Source of the DNA: Drouetiella hepatica Uher 2000/2452
GTDB lineage: Bacteria > Cyanobacteriota > Cyanobacteriia > Elainellales > Elainellaceae
DNA length: 64,000 nt
Direction of reading: 5' to 3'
Assembly: GCA_019359505.1 (NCBI GenBank)
Contig: JAHHHD010000016.1
Span: 55,964-119,963, forward strand
A program made the translations under genes and the position numbers. Positions 39,690 through 63,689 of the stretch are shown here, one piece after another. The notes beneath the pieces were generated by a model that saw nothing but the letters and a program-made list of their open reading frames with translations, did not search any database and was not told the DNA's origin. The stretch's first letter is position 1. Each line of letters opens with the position of its first letter.

Positions 39690-41969
39690 CTAAAATAAGG
39701 CTTTGGGCTTGAAATTTCGCAATCGTAGAGCATTGGTTACAACTGAGACTGAGCTAAGCGCCATTGCAGCTCCAGCGACCACAGGACTGAGTAACCAGCC
39801 GGAAATAGGATAGAGAATTCCTGCCGCAATTGGAATTCCTGCCACGTTATAGATAAACGCAAAGAACAGGTTTTGTCGAATGTTTCGCAAGGTGGCGCGG
39901 GAAAGCTGAATTGCAGTAACGATACCATTCAAATCACCTGAAATTAACGTGATATCGCTGGCGGCAATGGCTACGTCTGTTCCGGTACCGATCGCCAAAC
40001 CTACGTCAGCTTGCGCTAAGGCAGGTGCATCATTAATGCCGTCTCCCACCATTGCAACTCGTTTCCCCTCTGCCTGTAGCGCTGCAATCTGAGCTGCCTT
40101 TTGATCGGGGCGAACTTCTGCCATAACGCGACGAATTCCCACTTCTCGCGCGATCACCTCGGCCGTGCGGAGGTTGTCGCCTGTCAGCATCACAACCTCT
40201 AGTCCTAGCTTTTGCAGGGTGCGAATGGCAGCCGCCGAGGAGGGTTTGACGGCATCTGAGATACCCATGATGCTTTCTACTTTGCCGTTGACCGCTACCC
40301 AGATCACAGTTTTGCCGATCGCTTCCAACGACTCCCACTGGAGCTGAACCTCAGTCTCAATCCCTAGTTCATGCATCCAGCGATATGTTCCAATCTGCAC
40401 AAGCTGATGAGAAGCTTGACCAAAAGTTGGGTTAGAAACATAGCCTTGAACGCCACTACCCGCGATCGCCTCAAAATCTTCTACGCTGGCTAATTCTGCG
40501 CCCTGAGCTTGAGCATACTGCACGACTGCTTCAGCCAAGGGATGCTCTGAGTTTCGTTCTACAGCAGCAGCAAGGCTCAGAAGCCTTAACTCGTTGCCAT
40601 TTGCTGTTCCTCTGACCGTTATAAAATCGGTTACAGTCGGTTTACCTTGAGTAATCGTTCCCGTTTTATCTAAAACGATCGTTTGGAGTTTATGAGCCTG
40701 TTCCAGACTTTCGGCTGCCTTAATCAAAATCCCATTCTCTGCTCCTTTCCCGGTTCCCACCATAATGGATGTAGGTGTTGCTAAACCTAATGCACAAGGG
40801 CAGGCAATAATTAGTACCCCAACTGTTGTAATCAACGCCATCGTCACGTTCCCCATGACGTTGTACCAGATGACAAAAGTGGCGATCGCGATTGCTATAA
40901 CTACAGGCACAAACCAGCCTGTAACGCGATCGGCAAGCCGTTGGATAGGAGCTTTAGAGCCTTGTGCCTGCTGCACCAGCTTGACGATTTGCGCCAAGAA
41001 AGTGTCTTTGCCTATGCGGGTGACGCGGAGCTTAAAGCTGCCCGTTTTATTAATCGTTGCTCCAATGACCTCATCGCCAACTTGCTTTTTCACGGCTAAG
41101 CTTTCGCCTGTAACCATGGCTTCATCGATCGTGGAGCCGCCCTCAACAATTTCGCCATCTGCGGGAATTTTTTCGCCTGGACGGACAAGAATTATGTCGT
41201 TTAGAACGACTTCATCGATCGAGATATCTATGTCTTTTCCGTTGCGGATCACGCGCGCTGTTCTCGCCTGTAGACCGATCAATTTACGCATTGCCTCAGA
41301 GGTTTGTCCCCTAGCGCGGTTTTCTAGCAAGCGTCCCAGCAAAATTAGCGTGACGATCGCTGAGGCAGATTCATAGTAGACATCTGGATTCAATCCTTGG
41401 CGGATGAACCAATCAGGGGAAAAAGTTGGGAAGAGAGAGTAAACGTAAGCCGTACCCGTACCGATCGCCACCAGAGTATCCATCGTTGCGGTATGGCGTT
41501 TGAGGGATTTCCAAGCGTTGATGAAAAAAGAACTGCCACACCAGAACAGCACTGGAGTTGTTAGAAATAACTGTAGCCAAGCATTATGCAGCCACATGGG
41601 GATGAACAGAATCGGCAAGCCCGTCATCATAGGCAGGGAACCGATCACGAGAATGATGCTAACAACACCGCCTACCCAAATCTTACGGGTCAATCTACGG
41701 TTTTCGGCTTGTCTTTCTTGCCGCTCTCTATCGCTCTCATCTACGATGCCCTCTTGCAGCGGCTGTGCAGAGTAGCCTGCCGCATCAACAGCCGCTTGAA
41801 TTTCAGCGAGGCTGGTTTTGTCAGGGTCATAGGTGACAGATGCCTGCTCTGCGCCAAAATTGACGCTAGCGCTAACGTCCGGAATAGATTGAATCGCTTC
41901 CTCTATGTTGTGTGCGCATGAGGCGCAACTCATACCCCGCAGCTTTAAAGTTGCATTTTCGGTTGCCAT
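39690..41969 (-). CDS. copA: Copper-translocating P-type ATPase
   Basis: P1B-type ATPase pumping Cu+ across the plasma or thylakoid membrane. The 759 residues include an N-terminal heavy-metal-associated domain with GMSCASC (Cys15, Cys18), eight membrane helices, the CPC motif in helix 6 (Cys390-Pro391-Cys392, I-A-CPCALG), the phosphorylation motif DKTGT, the SEHPLAEA His-Pro motif and [10 protein letters not shown]. Cyanobacteria have two paralogues, CtaA (import) and PacS (thylakoid); adjacency to an Atx1-like chaperone fits both. The substrate assignment to copper is firm from CPC plus context. Confidence 0.94.
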
Positions 41970-55923: not shown

Positions 55924-58806
55924 CTAGGTCGCCATCTGCCTAGCAATCAACTGAGCAAATAAGCCTTCCTGCTGAGCCAGTTCGTCAAACGATCCCTGTT
56001 GCACAACCCGCCCTGCTTCAATCACATAGATGCGATCGGCATGGCGAATGGTGCTGAGGCGATGGGCAATCACGATGCGCGTCACGCCCAGAGCATCCAA
56101 ACTTTCGGTGACGATCGCCTGCGTCCGGTTATCTAACGCGCTCGTGGCTTCGTCGAATAGCAAAATCTGAGGCTTCAGCGCCAAAGCCCGCGCAATCATG
56201 AGCCGCTGCCGCTGACCGCCAGAGATATTGGAGCCGCCCTCGCTGACAAACGTATACATACCCATCGGCATTGCCCGCACGTCATCCGCAAAACCCGCAC
56301 GCTCTGCTGCTTCCCAAGCTTCACTGACAGCCAGTAAGGCGCTGGCAGAAATATTGGCAAAGATGCTGCCGGAATTAATGCGGCTATTTTGCAGCACCAC
56401 CCCCAACTGTCTACGCACAGCCGTAATATCCAACCCTGAGAGATCTTGCCCATCGTAATAGATACTGCCGTCGCTAGGAGTATCGAAGCCTAGCAGCAAT
56501 CGCAACAGAGTCGATTTACCGCTGCCCGAAGGGCCTACCAGCGCGATGAATTCTCCTGGCTCTGCATGAAAGCTGATTTGATCGAGAGTCAGAGGTCCAT
56601 CGTCTCGATAGCGGAAGGTCACACGATCGACCCTCACTCGCCCGGTCAGCCTACCCGGATCAGCCTTGTCGGGATCGACCTCTGGCTCAGCAGCCAGGAT
56701 AGGCTGCGATCGCTTCCACAAGGTCACCACTTCCAGCACAGAAGTAATAGCATTGCTGAGGCTGGTAGCCCCACTGATAAAAATCCCAAAGGCAGCGCTA
56801 AAGGCGAGAAACCTCCCTGTAGAAAGCCCTGTCTCTCCCGCAGACTGCGCCTGCCCAATCACAATTACCGTCGCCCAAAACAGCAGGGTTGCCGTCAATC
56901 CCGGCATCACGGTGTTAAAAATTGCCACGCCGTCCTGAATCTTTTGAGTGCTTAACTCAAGCTGAAGCTGCCGCGTGTATTTTTGCCCCCAGGTCGCAAA
57001 AGCACGCTCCTCAGCCCCAGCGCTCCTCAGTTTAGGCACAGCCTCAATCAATTTCACCAACAAGCCATAAATTTCGCCCCGCAGCTCTAGAAGCGGACGG
57101 GTCTGCTGAAGCAGCAGCGCCCCAGAAGTGGCAGTAAAGGCGATCGCCACCACTGCCACTACGCCTGCCACCAGCGCCAAACTAGGGCTATAGATCAGCA
57201 TCAGCCCAAAGTTTAGCAGCGCAAAAAAGCCCGTCAGAATGGTGCGAAAGGTGGTACCCGTTAGCTTTCTGCGGATTTGACCAATGCCTGAAACGCGAGA
57301 CTCCAGATCGCCGATCGTATATTCCCGAAAAAAAGTCGGCTTCAGCTTGAGCAACCGATCCCAAACCGCCCCCTGCATTGAGGCTTCAGAAACCGCTTCT
57401 AGCCGCATTGTGGCTAAACCCTGCACCAACTCTAAGCTGACAGAACCCAACGCAAAGAACAGCAAACCTAATCCAATCTGGATCAGCAGATTACGATTGC
57501 CTGTTGGTAGAGCCGTGTCAATTAAAATGCCTGTTGCCAGTGGCACCAGCATTCCCGCTAGGGTACTGGCAATCCCCATGCTCAGCAGAATGATGAGATT
57601 CTTGAGCTGTCCTTTAAAGGCGAACCGCACTAGATCCCAGGCTCGTAGAACCGATTCAGGAAAAGAGCGGTAGAAGATGTAGGCACTCGGCTCCAAGCTT
57701 GACGCAATCTCTGCATCCACCCGCGGATAACGCCGCTGAGAGGAATGATTCGTTTCCGCCTGGGGATCAAAAATGACATAGTGATCACCCGCGATCGGCA
57801 AAAGCGCAACCGGGCTTTTGCCCTGACGCCGATAGGCAATAATGGCGCTACCATCCTTTTCCCACCACTTGTCTCGGAGAAGAACCCGTCGCAGCCGTAG
57901 CCGAGAAGATCGGGCGATCGCCTCCAAGGGATCACGCATTCGACTGGCATCTTCCGCCTCCATCGCTGGCTTGATGGCAACCCCTAAGGCTTTGCCTACG
58001 GCTCCAGCCACCATCAGTAGCTCATCCGCCTCTGCAAACTGATTGGCGGGTCTAGGCTGAAGCAGAGCCACCAGATCTTTGAGCGTATCTTGCGTCACCT
58101 GACGATTAAGCTGCTGTCTTTTTTGAAACCTAGAAAATTCTGCCTGAGTTTCCTGGGTAGTAACTAACTCAATCCCTCGCAGAAAATAACTATGGAGATG
58201 ATTTAATCCTGCAACTAGAGTGTCGATCGTATCTATTTCTGTCGTAGATTGCACCAAAAGCTGAACATTATCCGTAGATTGCACCCACATTCCACTTGCC
58301 AGCGGCAGGATACCCGATTCAGGAACCAGCGTTAACGAATCATATCCCAGCCACTGCACGGTTCCCTGCTGGCACTGTATCCATAGCACCTGATCTCTAG
58401 GTGGCTGAAAGACTTGATCTTTAACTAAAGAAACATAGCGATCGGAGTGAGTCGGCTTAGCAAAAACAGTATGCGGTAGCCCTTTCACCTGTGCTAATTG
58501 ATGAACCCATGTTTCTACGAGCGGCAACAGAGTGGGCAGACCGACGGTAGCGATCGACTGCTCCCAGAGTTCTGCGGGTTCAACAGCTACTGCCAGAATG
58601 CCTAGGTGATGTTCTGAATGGCTCAATATAGCGCTAAATAGAGCTTCCCCAGGTTTGACATCAAACAGATACCGACGTTCGCCCTCTGGAGCATCATCAA
58701 TAATGGCTATTGCAAACAAGGCGATCGATCCAGATTGCACTGTCCAAACCAAGCTAGAGTCGCTCAGCAGCAGGGGCAAATTTCCTTGAAGCGTCTTAGA
58801 GATCAT
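55924..58806 (-). CDS. NHLM-type ABC exporter, permease and ATPase without recognisable peptidase
   Basis: A 960-residue exporter of the second NHLM bacteriocin-system ABC type. A long soluble N-terminal region (about 1-400) contains no C39 Cys/His motif. It is followed by a transmembrane domain (about 400-690) and an ATPase with Walker A GPSGSGKST near 757-765, signature ISGGQRQR near 861-868 and ILLFDEATSALD. Partners of this group usually form a pair with a C39-bearing exporter, which is present at 59682-61961. It is transcribed divergently from the tandem peptide gene (494-base spacer). Confidence 0.9.
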   Translation of the reverse strand: MISKTLQGNLPLLLSDSSLVWTVQSGSIALFAIAIIDDAPEGERRYLFDVKPGEALFSAILSHSEHHLGILAVAVEPAELWEQSIATVGLPTLLPLVETWVHQLAQVKGLPHTVFAKPTHSDRYVSLVKDQVFQPPRDQVLWIQCQQGTVQWLGYDSLTLVPESGILPLASGMWVQSTDNVQLLVQSTTEIDTIDTLVAGLNHLHSYFLRGIELVTTQETQAEFSRFQKRQQLNRQVTQDTLKDLVALLQPRPANQFAEADELLMVAGAVGKALGVAIKPAMEAEDASRMRDPLEAIARSSRLRLRRVLLRDKWWEKDGSAIIAYRRQGKSPVALLPIAGDHYVIFDPQAETNHSSQRRYPRVDAEIASSLEPSAYIFYRSFPESVLRAWDLVRFAFKGQLKNLIILLSMGIASTLAGMLVPLATGILIDTALPTGNRNLLIQIGLGLLFFALGSVSLELVQGLATMRLEAVSEASMQGAVWDRLLKLKPTFFREYTIGDLESRVSGIGQIRRKLTGTTFRTILTGFFALLNFGLMLIYSPSLALVAGVVAVVAIAFTATSGALLLQQTRPLLELRGEIYGLLVKLIEAVPKLRSAGAEERAFATWGQKYTRQLQLELSTQKIQDGVAIFNTVMPGLTATLLFWATVIVIGQAQSAGETGLSTGRFLAFSAAFGIFISGATSLSNAITSVLEVVTLWKRSQPILAAEPEVDPDKADPGRLTGRVRVDRVTFRYRDDGPLTLDQISFHAEPGEFIALVGPSGSGKSTLLRLLLGFDTPSDGSIYYDGQDLSGLDITAVRRQLGVVLQNSRINSGSIFANISASALLAVSEAWEAAERAGFADDVRAMPMGMYTFVSEGGSNISGGQRQRLMIARALALKPQILLFDEATSALDNRTQAIVTESLDALGVTRIVIAHRLSTIRHADRIYVIEAGRVVQQGSFDELAQQEGLFAQLIARQMAT

Positions 58807-59300
58807 AATGGAGCATCGGGTGAGGCATCAGGACGCAAATCACGACAGAATTTATCTGCTGAGTTTATCTGTAAAGTAGCTATGAGCGATTATCTTCCTC
58901 AAAACTTCAAAGTTTTGTTTTGTAAATTCTCAAAAAAGGTTTTGTTTTGTAAATTTTTGCAATCATAATCTGAATCATCATTGGCTCAAAGCCATGTGTT
59001 TAAAGATCATCTTGATTTCAATCAACTATTCTTGCTCATTCTACTGCCGATCACTTTTCATATACTCTCACCAAGCAGGAGAGTGTAACTCGTTACACCT
59101 CCATTCAAAATTTAATATCCTACAATAGGGCTATAGGCAGTCTTAAGGCAAACAAATACGACCTGTATTTTTAGTTTTCCAAGGCAGCTCTAACGGTATC
59201 CCAAGATCTCTAAAAATTTCTTAGGGTAAGCGAGTCAGGTAAACTTCTGCTATGCAAGTGACCTGAATAATTAACATTCAAGCAATCGATTGGAGTAATT
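58807..59300. other. Promoter region of the tandem peptide gene
   Basis: AT-rich divergent spacer. It has a doubled GTTTTGTTTTGTAAATT (58912-58928 and 58939-58955) and a dyad TCAGGT (59235-59240) with ACCTGA (59261-59266). TACAAT near 59123 may be a -10. No further coding frame is accepted. Confidence 0.55.
58912..58955. repeat. Direct 17-bp repeat upstream of the export genes
   Basis: GTTTTGTTTTGTAAATT occurs twice, 27 bases apart, about 110 bases before the minus-strand exporter start. Spacing of 27 bases is not an integer number of helix turns, so slippage duplication is as likely as a binding site. Confidence 0.7.
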
Positions 59301-59588
59301 ATGTCTGTACAACACGAAAGCGAAGAACTCAGCCCAGAAGACCTGACTAAAGTCTCAGGTGGCGAAGACGGTGGCTTCCTGCACCAAACTGAAGGTTCGC
59401 TAAATCAAGAAGATCTGTCTAAAATCTCAGGTGGCGAAGACGGTGGCTTCCTGCACCAAACTGAAGGTTCGCTAAATCAAGAAGATCTGTCTAAAATCTC
59501 AGGTGGCGAAGACGGTGGCTTCCTGCACCAAACTGAAGGTTCGTTCGATAAAGAATCTTTCGTTAATCCCGGTAGCGCTCCTGACTAG
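59301..59588 (+). CDS. Tandem-repeat double-glycine peptide precursor
   Basis: A 95-residue peptide with GGAG 6 bases before the ATG. It is an arrangement of leader MSVQHESEELSPEDLTKVSGG (21 residues) followed by units beginning EDGGFLHQTEGS and ending in the same leader-like LNQEDLSKISGG. Each of three GG sites fits the C39 rule L(-12), D/E(-8), L(-7), V/I(-4), GG. Cleavage at all three predicts two 24-residue peptides and a 26-residue one (21+24+24+26=95). There is no Cys. It lies in the NHLM export island, opposite to the C39 exporter. No homologue or modification is recognised. Confidence 0.85.
   Translation: MSVQHESEELSPEDLTKVSGGEDGGFLHQTEGSLNQEDLSKISGGEDGGFLHQTEGSLNQEDLSKISGGEDGGFLHQTEGSFDKESFVNPGSAPD
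59355..59543. repeat. 72-bp tandem repeats inside the peptide gene
   Basis: Copies at 59355-59426 and 59427-59498 are identical over 72 bases; a third copy from 59499 is identical for 45 bases and then diverges. The unit is 24 codons, so copy number can change without frameshift. The identity points to recent duplication. Confidence 0.95.
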
Positions 59589-59619
59589 CTGACGACAGAT
59601 TAAGTTAAACCAAGTCAAA

Positions 59620-59674
59620 AACCGCTTCTATCCCATTCGGCGAACAGCCTGAGGGTACGAGGCGGTATTTTTGT
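59620..59674. terminator. Shared hairpin terminator
   Basis: AAAACCGCTTC (about 59620-59630) faces GAGGCGGTATTTTT (about 59658-59674), with partly paired inner sequence. It lies between the convergent peptide and C39-exporter genes and has T- or A-runs suitable for both directions. Confidence 0.55.
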
Positions 59675-59681
59675 TCAAGTC

Positions 59682-61961
59682 CTAGCTCGCCTCGCTCATA
59701 ATTAACTTGGAGTAATGTCCTTTTTCCTGCCACAGGGATTCATGCGTTCCCCGCTGTACGACCTTACCGCGCTCCAACACAATAATTTCATCGCAGTCTC
59801 GAATCGTGCTGAGTCGATGTGCCACAATCAAACAGGTGCAGCCCCGTCGGCGCAGATTGCGATCGATAATTTTTTCAGTTTCCGCATCTAGGGCGCTAGT
59901 CGCTTCATCCATAATCAGAATCGTCGGATCATTCACCAAAGCTCTAGCAATCTCTAAACGCTGACGCTGTCCGCCGCTCAAATTTGCCGCTCCTTCAATC
60001 AGCGGCGCATCATAGCCCCCTGGAATAGAAAGAATCACATCATTAATTGCCGCATCCAGGCAGGCTTTTTCCAAAGTCTGATCAGAGATAGTGGAGTCCC
60101 ATAGGGTGAGATTGGCTCGAATACTGTCTGCGAACAGCAGAATATCTTGATCAACTACCGAAATAGAATTTGTGAGAACCGATCGCGGAATCTGAGGTCT
60201 AGACATGCCATCGAAGTTAACCTCTCCCTCCCAAGGTTCATAAAGTCCGGCAACAATCTTCGCCAAGGTCGATTTTCCCGAACCGCTGCCCCCGACCAAT
60301 GCCACACGCTGTCCGGGTTTGATCGAGAGGCTGAAATCTTGAATTAAAGGGGGCGTGACCCGGCTGTAGCCATAGGTGACACCTTTCATCTCGATATAGC
60401 CTTGCAGCCTATAAGATGAGCGCATCAGAGACCATTCGGATTTTTCAGGTTGAGCTTGGGCTTGCTCTACTCGATCTTGCTCCGCCTTCAGAGCTGGATC
60501 GGTCACATTGTCCAAGACATCATCCAAACGGAGAAGATTGCCTTCCAAGTCCTGAAGGGTACTGCCAAATCGCACTAAGTTATTAACTGGCCCCAAAAAA
60601 CTCACTGTCAAGAGTTGAAAAGCCAGCAGCATCCCAATCGTCATCTTGCCCTGAATAACTTGCCAACCCCCAATGCTGAGCAAAAACACCGTGCTCAGCG
60701 AGGTAATTAGCGAAGGCAATAGGCTTAGCTTTTGGTTAACCAAGTTTAGCGCCTGCTGCGCGTTAGTCGCTTTGGTGTAATAGCCTGCCCAACGCGAAAA
60801 GAAGTCTGACTCTAATCCAGAAGCTTTCAGAGTTTCGATGCTTTGCAGCCCCGCGATCGCCACGCCGTTCACCTTACCGTAGTTCTGCGCCACGGTAATA
60901 TTGGCATCTACCCGCCGCTTAGATACCCACTGCAATGCCAAAACGTTGGCGATCGCAAACACCACCACAACTAGCGTTAACAGCGCATTGTATCTCAGCA
61001 TAATTGCCGCGTAGAAAACAACCAGCACAACGCTAATCATCGTTGTGGTGAGCTGCCCAGTCAAGACGCTAGCCACGCGATCGTTAATCCGAATACGGCT
61101 ACTAATTTCTCCTGAATAGCGCTGGGCATAGTAACTTACGGGCAGCTTCAGCAGATGCCAGACAAACTGGCTAGACATTGCCACCGACAGCTTAATTTTG
61201 AGCTTGCGCAGATACTGCAACTGAAGCGCCGTTAATAAACCCTGCAATGAAACCGTTAGCAGCATTCCGACCAGCAGGTAAGGAACCCAGTCTAAACGAT
61301 GTTTGATTAGCACATTATCCACAAACACCTGGCTAAACACCGGCACAGCTAGATTGGGAATCACCAGTAGAAACCCTGCCGCAACGCAGTATGCCAGTGC
61401 CGCAGCCGAGCTTCGCAGGCGATTCTGCAAAGCCTCAATCACGCTCTTTTTTTTACCGCCCTTTTGAAAATTTACGCCAGGTTCCATCAGCAAGACGATA
61501 CCGGTGTAACCCTGATTGAATTCTTCTAGCGCAATTTTTCTCCGTCCAACTGCCGGATCGCTGACATACGCCTGCTCTTTGTCAAACCCTTCTACCACCA
61601 AAAAATGGTCAAATTGCCAGAAGATAATGTAAGGAGGCTGCAACTCCATCAAGCTCGGCAATCCCTTCTTGAATCCCTTCGCATTTAAGCCATACATTTT
61701 AGCGGCTGTCAGAACATTGGCAGCCGAACTGCCGTCCCGTGAAACGCCGCAAGCTTGACGGAGTTCCGCCAAGGGCACAATGCGACCATAATAGCCTAGG
61801 ATAATTCCCAATGCCGCTGCGCCGCATTCCACTGCCTCCATTTGAAGCAGCGTTGGGGCTGTGACGCGATCGCGCTTTCGATTCCGCAATTTCTGCCAAT
61901 GCTTCAGCAGCGTTTGTCCATACTCTAGTGGCTGTCTGTGATCTAGAAGCAATCTCACCAT
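59682..61961 (-). CDS. NHLM-type ABC exporter with active C39 peptidase
   Basis: A 759-residue peptidase-containing exporter that removes double-glycine leaders during export. The C39 domain (about 33-160) retains all active residues: Gln40 in LLQMEAVECG, Cys46, His119 in FDHFLVVE and Asp135 in SDPAVG. The transmembrane domain (about 185-480) and ATPase (Walker A GGSGSGKST near 556-564, LSGGQRQR, TILIMDEATSALD) follow. It is the natural protease for the tandem GG peptide encoded opposite. It is 39 bases downstream of the HlyD-like gene. Confidence 0.93.
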   Translation of the reverse strand: MVRLLLDHRQPLEYGQTLLKHWQKLRNRKRDRVTAPTLLQMEAVECGAAALGIILGYYGRIVPLAELRQACGVSRDGSSAANVLTAAKMYGLNAKGFKKGLPSLMELQPPYIIFWQFDHFLVVEGFDKEQAYVSDPAVGRRKIALEEFNQGYTGIVLLMEPGVNFQKGGKKKSVIEALQNRLRSSAAALAYCVAAGFLLVIPNLAVPVFSQVFVDNVLIKHRLDWVPYLLVGMLLTVSLQGLLTALQLQYLRKLKIKLSVAMSSQFVWHLLKLPVSYYAQRYSGEISSRIRINDRVASVLTGQLTTTMISVVLVVFYAAIMLRYNALLTLVVVVFAIANVLALQWVSKRRVDANITVAQNYGKVNGVAIAGLQSIETLKASGLESDFFSRWAGYYTKATNAQQALNLVNQKLSLLPSLITSLSTVFLLSIGGWQVIQGKMTIGMLLAFQLLTVSFLGPVNNLVRFGSTLQDLEGNLLRLDDVLDNVTDPALKAEQDRVEQAQAQPEKSEWSLMRSSYRLQGYIEMKGVTYGYSRVTPPLIQDFSLSIKPGQRVALVGGSGSGKSTLAKIVAGLYEPWEGEVNFDGMSRPQIPRSVLTNSISVVDQDILLFADSIRANLTLWDSTISDQTLEKACLDAAINDVILSIPGGYDAPLIEGAANLSGGQRQRLEIARALVNDPTILIMDEATSALDAETEKIIDRNLRRRGCTCLIVAHRLSTIRDCDEIIVLERGKVVQRGTHESLWQEKGHYSKLIMSEAS

Positions 61962-62000: not shown

Positions 62001-62612
62001 CTACTTGAGAAAAGGAAAAACGAAGCTGATGGGAGCACGATCGCTCAGCGTCACCCTGGCAGTAACAGGTGTACCGCCAGATAGCTTTTCGCTGGGACCT
62101 TTAGACATCGACCACTCATAGCCAGTAACATTCTCAGGATTGGGTTTCAGCTGCGCTAAAACCTCAATTGAGGCAGGAGTGTAAACCAATTCTGCCAACT
62201 CCAAGTTACCATCCACTCGCTTCAGCGCCGATGCCTGAGTGACTGAAGAGGGTGACACTTCAGTGACCGTTGCCTCCAAACCGCCAAATTCCTGGATGCT
62301 ATTGGTTTCAGGAATGATTAAAATGCGATCGCCAACCTGAATCTGTTTCCCCTCAACTATAGGAAAGTAGCTAACGCTAGTCAACTGGCTAGAATCAGAC
62401 CTATTCTTAATCAACAGACCTTTAGATTCAACGAAAATAGGGATACGGCCTATAACACTCCAGAGTAACGCTAAAGTTACCAGAAAACCGATAGACGCCA
62501 AAGGCAACCAGTCTCTAAGATTAACAACCTGCATCAGTTGGTCAAGCTGCTCAGGTGAAGAAACCTGCTCTAGCGCCTCTTTTCGGAATAAGCTTTCTTG
62601 TTCGCTTGCCAT
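62001..62612 (-). CDS. Short HlyD-like NHLM secretion protein
   Basis: A 203-residue membrane-fusion protein from the ATG at 62612. It has one N-terminal transmembrane helix (about 38-58, WLPLASIGFLVTLALLWSVIG), a beta-barrel/biotinyl-like part with GRIPIFVESKGLLIK and the VGDRILIIPE lipoyl-like strand, and a C-terminal segment SGGTPVTARVTLSDRAPISFVFPFL typical of the end of the family. There is no long coiled-coil hairpin, so it is shorter than standard HlyD and may not reach an outer-membrane channel. NHLM adaptors are usually short. It lies 18 bases after the upstream gene. Confidence 0.85.
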   Translation of the reverse strand: MASEQESLFRKEALEQVSSPEQLDQLMQVVNLRDWLPLASIGFLVTLALLWSVIGRIPIFVESKGLLIKNRSDSSQLTSVSYFPIVEGKQIQVGDRILIIPETNSIQEFGGLEATVTEVSPSSVTQASALKRVDGNLELAELVYTPASIEVLAQLKPNPENVTGYEWSMSKGPSEKLSGGTPVTARVTLSDRAPISFVFPFLK

Positions 62613-62630
62613 AGTCTTCACGCCTCAGTT

Positions 62631-63689
62631 TCAAGCTTTTACACCGAGTTGATGCAACATCCAGTTAAATCTAGCTCTAGCTATTGAAAGCTGCTGCAAA
62701 TCAGCAATATCTAGCTCCCCTGTGTAAGCTTGGCTATCGCATAAGCTACACCCCGGTTCATATCGAGTGCTTTTCTGTAGCTGATCAATAATCTGAAATA
62801 GCCGCTCCGCGGTTAGACTTGCCAGAGCCCGGTAGAACCGAGAAGCCAAGCCTATATCCTGCTGAAGTCTCGGCATTAGAGCAGAGATGGGAATCGATAA
62901 TACCAAAGTCTCTTGACTTGCCTTCAACATATAGAGATTTGGAGTCATGTCCAAAAATGCCGTTACGCCTAAAATTTCACCAGACAATGCTTCAGCAATC
63001 TTTCTAGGCTGAGTATTCTGGGAGGTGTTAAATGCCAATGATAATGAATTGCGCTTGCCTTGATATATAAACATGGAGAGGCTGCCTTGAAGAATGATAT
63101 CCAGGGCTTCTAAAGGCTGCCCCTCTCGAATATAAACTTCATCCTTTTTCAATCTCTTAACCCTTCCAGCGCTGGTCATCCAGCACATATCACTATCATG
63201 TAGACTACCAAATACTGAGAGCATGCTCTTGGTCATCTCTAAATGCGACTGAAGCATAGACTCTTTAGGTAGACGAGCAGTAATTTGCCATTGTTTGCTG
63301 GAAAGAAGCATCGCAATCGCCCGATAAAAACGAGCGCCAAAACCTGCATCCTGATGCAATTTATCAGCTAAAAGCTGTTTATCAATTGCTAATACCCATG
63401 AATCTTCTAGAGCTGTAACAGCAAAAGGTAAAAGCTGATCGCTCGGCAGAAGAAATGCTCCAATGACATCACCACTTGTGTAAAAGACTTGAGGAAGTGT
63501 TGAAGGAGGAGAATGCTCCGATTGAAGGGAGTTCAGAGCAAATTCTCCTTCCAGAATTAAATAAAGAGCATTGAGATTCTCACAGGCTTGTAAGAGGCGA
63601 TCGCCAGCCGTAACCTCTAACTTACTCCCTACTGAAACCATCCAATCAATGTCACTACTGCTTAGCTCTCTCAGTATAATTTCTGTCAT
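62631..63689 (-). CDS. Dual cyclic-nucleotide-binding-like regulatory protein
   Basis: A 352-residue protein with two CRP-type cupin domains (about 20-130 with LLQACENLNALYLILEGEFAL, and 170-290 with EVYIREGQPLEALDIILQGSLSMF) separated by a helical linker, and a short C-terminal Cys-containing region (YEPGCSLCDSQAY). No helix-turn-helix is obvious, so it is unlikely to bind DNA. Such proteins accompany NHLM exporters in cyanobacteria and may gate transport. AAGGGGAT precedes the ATG. It opens the exporter operon. Confidence 0.83.
   Translation of the reverse strand: MTEIILRELSSSDIDWMVSVGSKLEVTAGDRLLQACENLNALYLILEGEFALNSLQSEHSPPSTLPQVFYTSGDVIGAFLLPSDQLLPFAVTALEDSWVLAIDKQLLADKLHQDAGFGARFYRAIAMLLSSKQWQITARLPKESMLQSHLEMTKSMLSVFGSLHDSDMCWMTSAGRVKRLKKDEVYIREGQPLEALDIILQGSLSMFIYQGKRNSLSLAFNTSQNTQPRKIAEALSGEILGVTAFLDMTPNLYMLKASQETLVLSIPISALMPRLQQDIGLASRFYRALASLTAERLFQIIDQLQKSTRYEPGCSLCDSQAYTGELDIADLQQLSIARARFNWMLHQLGVKA

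Follow-up and report, generated by a model that had tools for sequence, protein, structure and literature searches.

A candidate tandem peptide precursor with three C39 recognition sites beside an NHLM exporter pair in the cyanobacterium Drouetiella hepatica

The window analyzed here, a stretch of 64,000 nucleotides from Drouetiella hepatica Uher 2000/2452, contains a small gene on the + strand (59301..59588) that runs from an ATG start to a TAG stop and encodes a 95-residue precursor with three C39 sites. The leader (residues 1–21, 59301..59363) ends in site 1, LSPEDLTKVSGG, at residues 10–21 (59328–59363). It is followed by unit 1 (59364..59435), whose 24 residues consist of EDGGFLHQTEGS and site 2, LNQEDLSKISGG (residues 34–45, 59400–59435). 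Unit 2 (59436..59507) has the same 24 residues, with site 3 at its end (residues 58–69, 59472–59507), and unit 3 (59508..59585) is the 26-residue EDGGFLHQTEGSFDKESFVNPGSAPD, without a further site. Each of the three sites is thus followed by EDGGFLHQTEGS. Tandem Repeats Finder detected a 72-bp period between 59336 and 59543 (2.9 copies, 97% matches), and units 2 and 3 are alike at all 60 bases compared.

The precursor is acidic, with 21 D+E residues, four K, no R and no Cys. Its AlphaFold model is too poor for use (pLDDT 54), although the helices in it fall on the sites. The bacteriocin_sig profile TIGR01847 matches the precursor with 27.9 bits (cut-off 15.7). Neither NHLP (TIGR03793) nor the CTB family bacteriocin profile NF038167 listed it at E ≤ 1, and the Nif11 leader domain (TIGR03798) scored 11.3 bits against a required 32.3.

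A ribosome-binding site, GGAG, lies upstream of the start codon (59292..59295, +). Among the 14 family genes for which DNA was available, the window's included, 13 have GGAG and one has GAGG. Further upstream, a predicted promoter block (59084..59126, +) combines the palindrome TGTAACTCGTTACA (59084–59097) with TACAAT (59121–59126), and 22 bases separate TTACAC from TACAAT. The spacing of the palindrome to TACAAT resembles that of a class II activator site. The block is kept in three of the 14 genes, all in the host's own genus, and was not reported by a consensus promoter scan. The precursor gene and the exporter gene that follows it converge, and in the gap between the two a hairpin at 59616..59673 (+; −27.7 kcal/mol, z −2.99, 91 bases folded) is likely to be a terminator; a scan for short-loop hairpins did not pick it up.

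The precursor gene sits in divergent orientation between two exporter genes on the − strand. NHLM_micro_ABC2 (55924..58806) is without a peptidase, while NHLM_micro_ABC1 (59682..61961) carries an N-terminal C39 peptidase (61476–61856). Both exceed their cut-offs, with 964.9 bits for TIGR03797 (cut-off 709.4) and 1114.7 bits for TIGR03796 (cut-off 853.3), as is characteristic of the ABC pair of an NHLM export cassette. Next to ABC1 are a short HlyD-type adaptor of 206 residues (62001..62621, −) and a bacteriocin-type transport-associated protein with two cyclic-nucleotide-binding domains (62631..63689, −; TIGR03896 202.8 bits, cut-off 161.05), 311 bases beyond which the contig and the window end. 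The adaptor falls short of a full-length NHLM HlyD protein: TIGR03794 gave 141.7 bits (cut-off 156.2), with the best stretch covering profile positions 292–420 of 421. It is predicted to be a membrane-fusion β-barrel that lacks the coiled-coil hairpin.

The top match of the C39 domain among solved structures was LahT (6mpz, 138.5 bits). The preliminary description had stated that this exporter, on the strand opposite the precursor, has all catalytic residues, and Q40, C46, H119 and D135 are indeed present. It had also claimed that three double-glycine sites fit the C39 rule, which holds in full, as L-12, D-8, L-7, V/I-4 and GG are found in each. Its cutting arithmetic was reproduced as well: cleavage at every GG would give a 21-residue leader and three peptides of 24, 24 and 26 residues, the two 24-mers being identical.

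Whole-genome searches found matches at E ≤ 0.01 in 11 of the 36 genomes of the host's cyanobacterial family, the window's genome included, and 14 precursors were identified in these 11. A protein search with the precursor returned five relatives. The 14 precursors and four database proteins make up the 'DGG' core family of 18; the fifth database protein, P0005, duplicates the precursor of G002b and hence was not counted. Records of the family include JACQYI010000022.1, CASBQM010000871.1 and JALOOP010000116.1 (Oculatellaceae cyanobacterium Prado106). Every one of the 18 has two to four C39 sites, so the repetition of recognition sites within the core region, noted earlier for the window's precursor, extends to its relatives.

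Outside the host family, profile A1 found nothing convincing in 386 genomes of the phylum. Three of these gave E ≤ 0.01, namely the host's own genome and two weak matches (best E 0.001 and 0.005), in a limited first look that scored at most 13 candidates per listed genome. A plasmid search with the precursor gave no match, and none of the seven stretches that fitted the pattern in a viral search was confirmed as a precursor. L217 (E 0.008) and L218 (E 0.014) proved on inspection not to be precursors, and L228 (E 0.010) and L220 (E 0.028) had no qualifying frame.

In all eight loci where both ABC1 and ABC2 were found beside the precursor, they flank it and are encoded on the strand opposite to it. 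The DGG-clade ABC1 of G008 and G020 is located on another contig, and at L033, L035, L038 and L043 a cassette gene is absent from the fetched stretch (6.3–19.5 kb, two being whole short contigs). In G010, which also has a DGG precursor, the sole exporter over the cut-off belongs to a sister clade.

Gene content around the precursors was compared across 13 fetched stretches and window positions 40000–64000. No tailoring enzyme gene common to the DGG loci was found. Besides the five cluster genes and general ABC-transporter matches, no ORF of at least 60 residues (E 1e-5) was shared by more than three of the 14 stretches, a size limit that a shorter immunity gene would escape. A few extra ORFs recur in two or three stretches. 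Six of these were scanned, giving DUF2721 twice, an FAD/2Fe-2S oxidoreductase, FGE-sulfatase/DinB, Methyltransf_33 and one ORF without a match; the FGE-sulfatase/DinB and Methyltransf_33 ORFs are reminiscent of ergothioneine genes. Absent from the other stretches, the recurring ORFs look like flanks, as far as short stretches and contig ends allow this to be judged.

The internal sites of the DGG family number 34, of which 29 are distinct and were counted. L-12 is present in 29/29, L-7 in 26/29, V/I/A-4 in 29/29, G-2 in 28/29 and G-1 in 29/29, and the positions that drift are −13, −11, −10, −9 and −5. In LahT, a hydrophobic groove is described as holding V-4, L-7 and L-12 of the leader (PMC6363468). 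The core that follows the internal sites is equally strict, with D+2 in 28/29 and G+4 in 29/29. Codons were compared over 28 internal units of 14 genes in 359 cross-gene pairs, which are not independent of one another. Differences were synonymous 280 times and non-synonymous 0 times at L-12, and 259 and 0 times at G-1; the variable position +6 had 26 synonymous and 283 non-synonymous differences. The recognition site is therefore under constraint, and so is the N-terminus that would be exposed by cutting it. The conserved frame, the ribosome-binding site and the synonymous-only change at key codons support translation of the precursor frame.

L-7 is replaced by A or T at the middle sites of G025 and G035, one site of G010 reads AG in place of GG, and in G020 one copy of the core lacks a site. 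In G013b, the three internal units are alike at only 33–38 of 60 bases, yet they retain L-12, L-7 and GG. Relatives in eleven genomes, the window's included, keep the multi-site layout, which thus goes beyond chance duplication.

The cores themselves are more alike within one precursor (identity 0.82) than between precursors (0.52), and none of 2000 shuffles reached as high a value (17 precursors, P0002 left out). This fits concerted change of a multi-copy peptide, although recent duplication would give the same picture. The G013b precursor has two different cores, each present twice, and in G008 the first core is unlike the others. As a separate observation, one precursor at L038 (8924–9304, −) contains DDNGYPGI twice and EDGGYRR twice.

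The survey of NHLM exporters covered 85 ABC1 loci, comprising all 28 over-cut-off exporters of the host family and 57 of 58 from a search of 291 genomes of the rest of the class; the one left out is a split gene in G532. By pattern, seven non-DGG loci of the host family have two-site precursors (L082, L083, L085, L087, L089, L091 and L099), with cores of the type LNERFDxARxxNLDK, as does one of the 57 loci outside it (L165, core VDFDQLRRENLDKDA). Frames with two or more sites exceed chance: they numbered 10 among 23,792 open frames of 30–300 residues from 77 surveyed loci, the eight DGG-precursor loci being excluded, while five residue shuffles gave 0, 0, 1, 0 and 0. Two of the ten, in L097 and L100 (one duplicated precursor), were rejected as the second 'site' was spurious on inspection. 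NF038167 (cut-off 32) was passed by L083 with 32.7 bits and was not reached by L091 (31.9) or L165 (27.9).

A tree built by a quick method from the 64 of 85 ABC1 rows recovered by motif pattern placed the 10 exporters from DGG-precursor genomes in one clade (SH-aLRT 100). Its sister holds 22 exporters (support 99; joint clade 99) and other tandem cores. Two sites were found there in L082, L083, L085, L087, L089, L099 and L165, and L091, also with two sites, was assigned to this clade by similarity only. Core copies without their own site also occur in the sister-type L089, L091 and L165. Nine sister-clade precursors combine one site with two or three cores (L137, L157, L160, L162, L163, L164, L166, L167 and L169), from which it follows that tandem cores do not always depend on C39 cuts. 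L094 and L098 have one site each, and a precursor was not found in the loci L142, L144, L146 and L149. Where HlyD was found in the DGG and sister clades it has 184–252 residues, compared with 319–559 in 50 of the 52 others. A short HlyD protein, hairpin-less by prediction, marks two sister exporter clades with tandem-core precursors.

Several side observations were made during the survey. The core FDxLRRENLDKDA of L165 (6370–6645, −) is found in repeated form in double-glycine precursors and also in proteins that have a Sec-like signal peptide. Among 120 listed of 229 homologues (P0016–P0135), 66 have a GG site, 45 match a crude pattern for a Sec-like N-terminus and nine have neither; this tandem peptide seems to leave by two routes. 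Matches were found in 40 of the 63 genomes of the L165 family, in some at 30 places or more. In another family, the precursor at L137 (6555–6845, −) has a single site and three core copies with GLGNK/R ends, and genome G012 encodes single-site precursors with short Pro/Asn/Asp-rich cores at L094 (6702–6872, +) and L098 (12685–12855, −).

The explanation that we consider likely is that the gene encodes a C39-processed tandem peptide precursor, with the neighboring exporter cutting each site and releasing three peptides (24, 24 and 26 residues) that all begin with EDGGFLHQTEGS. Multi-site processing is supported by the 2–4 sites kept in all relatives and by the positions bound in LahT being held at internal sites; cleavage at sites 2 and 3 is strongly implied by these sequences. 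The sites would bind one after another in the groove of the C39 domain, in the manner known from LahT. The ABC1/ABC2 pair would couple the cut after GG to export, the cycle would repeat at the next site, and the adaptor, hairpin-less by prediction, would pass the peptides on, either into the periplasm or into some outer-membrane route. Activity probably resides in the shared 12-residue core, while the recognition-site tails of units 1 and 2 may be spacers or be trimmed later. A peptide ending in a recognition site, as those of units 1 and 2 would, is odd for a mature product, and since the 24-mers keep the next site as a C-terminal tail the mature peptide may be shorter than that. Modification of the peptides is improbable, as a tailoring enzyme gene shared by the loci was not found. 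A lanthipeptide reading was ruled out because the precursor offers no Cys for thioether rings.

Two other accounts of the repeats were weighed. The first site alone might be cut, with the remaining 74 residues exported whole and the internal sites acting as extra docking motifs or as parts of a multivalent peptide. Site-less repeated cores in the nine sister-clade precursors and in the Sec-type homologues favor such an arrangement and imply that uncut tandem cores may be functional. Nevertheless, we regard it as quite unlikely: the C39-contact positions and both glycines at internal sites are nearly as strict as at first sites while the positions between them drift, and GG is described as located at the cut, outside the docking groove (PMC6363468). 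That the repeats are functionless products of recent replication slippage would agree with the identity of units 2 and 3 over the bases compared and with the varying site number among relatives. It is very hard to reconcile with more than one site in 18 of 18 relatives, and with units of other genes, such as those of G013b, that have diverged in DNA and kept L-12, L-7 and GG, and we give it hardly any weight.

Function is the least certain part of the interpretation. With the same processing, the product might be an unmodified class II-type bacteriocin made in several copies per precursor and directed at competing bacteria, as the NHLM cassette, the double-glycine leader and the TIGR01847 match would suggest. 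That profile's family name, however, reflects the annotation of its members and not an activity; the peptides are acidic and Cys-free, and the loci have no further common gene of at least 60 residues. Double-glycine systems also serve other ends, with the proteins EbfG1–4 and the C39 protein PteB of S. elongatus being described in biofilm development (PMC4997328). A bacteriocin is accordingly held to be rather unlikely, and a secreted signal, pheromone- or matrix-like, is preferred on the acidic, Cys-free peptides, the lack of a further common gene of that size and cores that are homogenized within a precursor and diverge between genera.

A broader proposal is advanced tentatively, at somewhat less than an even chance. 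It holds that a clade of NHLM exporters with hairpin-less adaptors is specialized in tandem-core peptides, and that in the DGG branch the exporter, through its own protease, doubles as an endoproteolytic dicer, acting at 2–4 sites per chain and releasing a lineage-specific acidic signal in fixed stoichiometry (in G013b, two peptides at once). These genes would then be bacterial equivalents of the polyprotein precursors from which pheromones are made.

Double-glycine class II peptides of C39 exporters typically carry a single site that closes a single leader, and C39 exporters are understood as removing one leader from one peptide. DGG precursors are like the peptides of LahT, ComA and PCAT1 in having L-12, L-7, V/I-4 and GG and a C39 domain with Q/C/H/D, but differ from them in their 2–4 complete sites, each copy of the core being preceded by one. 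Held against a typical double-glycine precursor, the window's gene has the leader motif and a C39 exporter with catalytic residues, but not the single site. If the full site belongs to the repeated unit, the exporter would be a processive cutter, and a single gene would yield several copies of a peptide or several peptides. With this family, the handling of several sites per chain by C39 exporters could be tested directly in vitro, including order, processivity and transport coupling. The shortened adaptor, linked with two exporter clades, gives genomic access to a subtype of peptide export whose outer-membrane step such an adaptor does not account for.

In fungal Kex2-processed repeat peptides a protease site, there dibasic and cut by a eukaryotic protease, accompanies each copy; the polyprotein logic is alike and the pathway different, so that the likeness is one of analogy only. 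Cyanobactin precursors are multi-core, and they share with the DGG precursor recognition sequences that accompany the cores in one chain. Cyanobactins, however, are described as cut by the subtilisin-type PatA/PatG and macrocyclized (PMC10885120), in contrast to a C39 exporter here. By gene content, the cassette is like the group V clusters of Wang et al. 2011, which comprise a short C39 transporter, a peptidase-less second ABC protein, HlyD and a protein with two cyclic-nucleotide domains; HlyD is shortened here, and a repeated-site precursor is not among the features seen described for group V (PMC3140520). A 2026 paper states that among lanthipeptides no precursor with several cores has been reported (PMC13343206). 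PMC7595303 was set aside as a precedent, its wording referring in the relevant passage to several genes. Searches of the open-access literature turned up no account of complete C39 sites in repeated form, and the nearest precedents encountered are TIGR03795 and SMU.1882. In D. acidovorans and A. avenae, TIGR03795 is described as a fusion of two precursors into a single chain, a two-peptide pair near proteobacterial cyclodehydratase genes, as opposed to the 2–4-fold array of one core in DGG (PMC2887384). SMU.1882 of Streptococcus mutans, a secreted-type protein of 117 residues, adjoins a comA-type exporter gene and has three GG motifs, of which that at position 23 alone is thought to be cleaved; it resembles the DGG precursors in having several GG motifs (PMC2989922).
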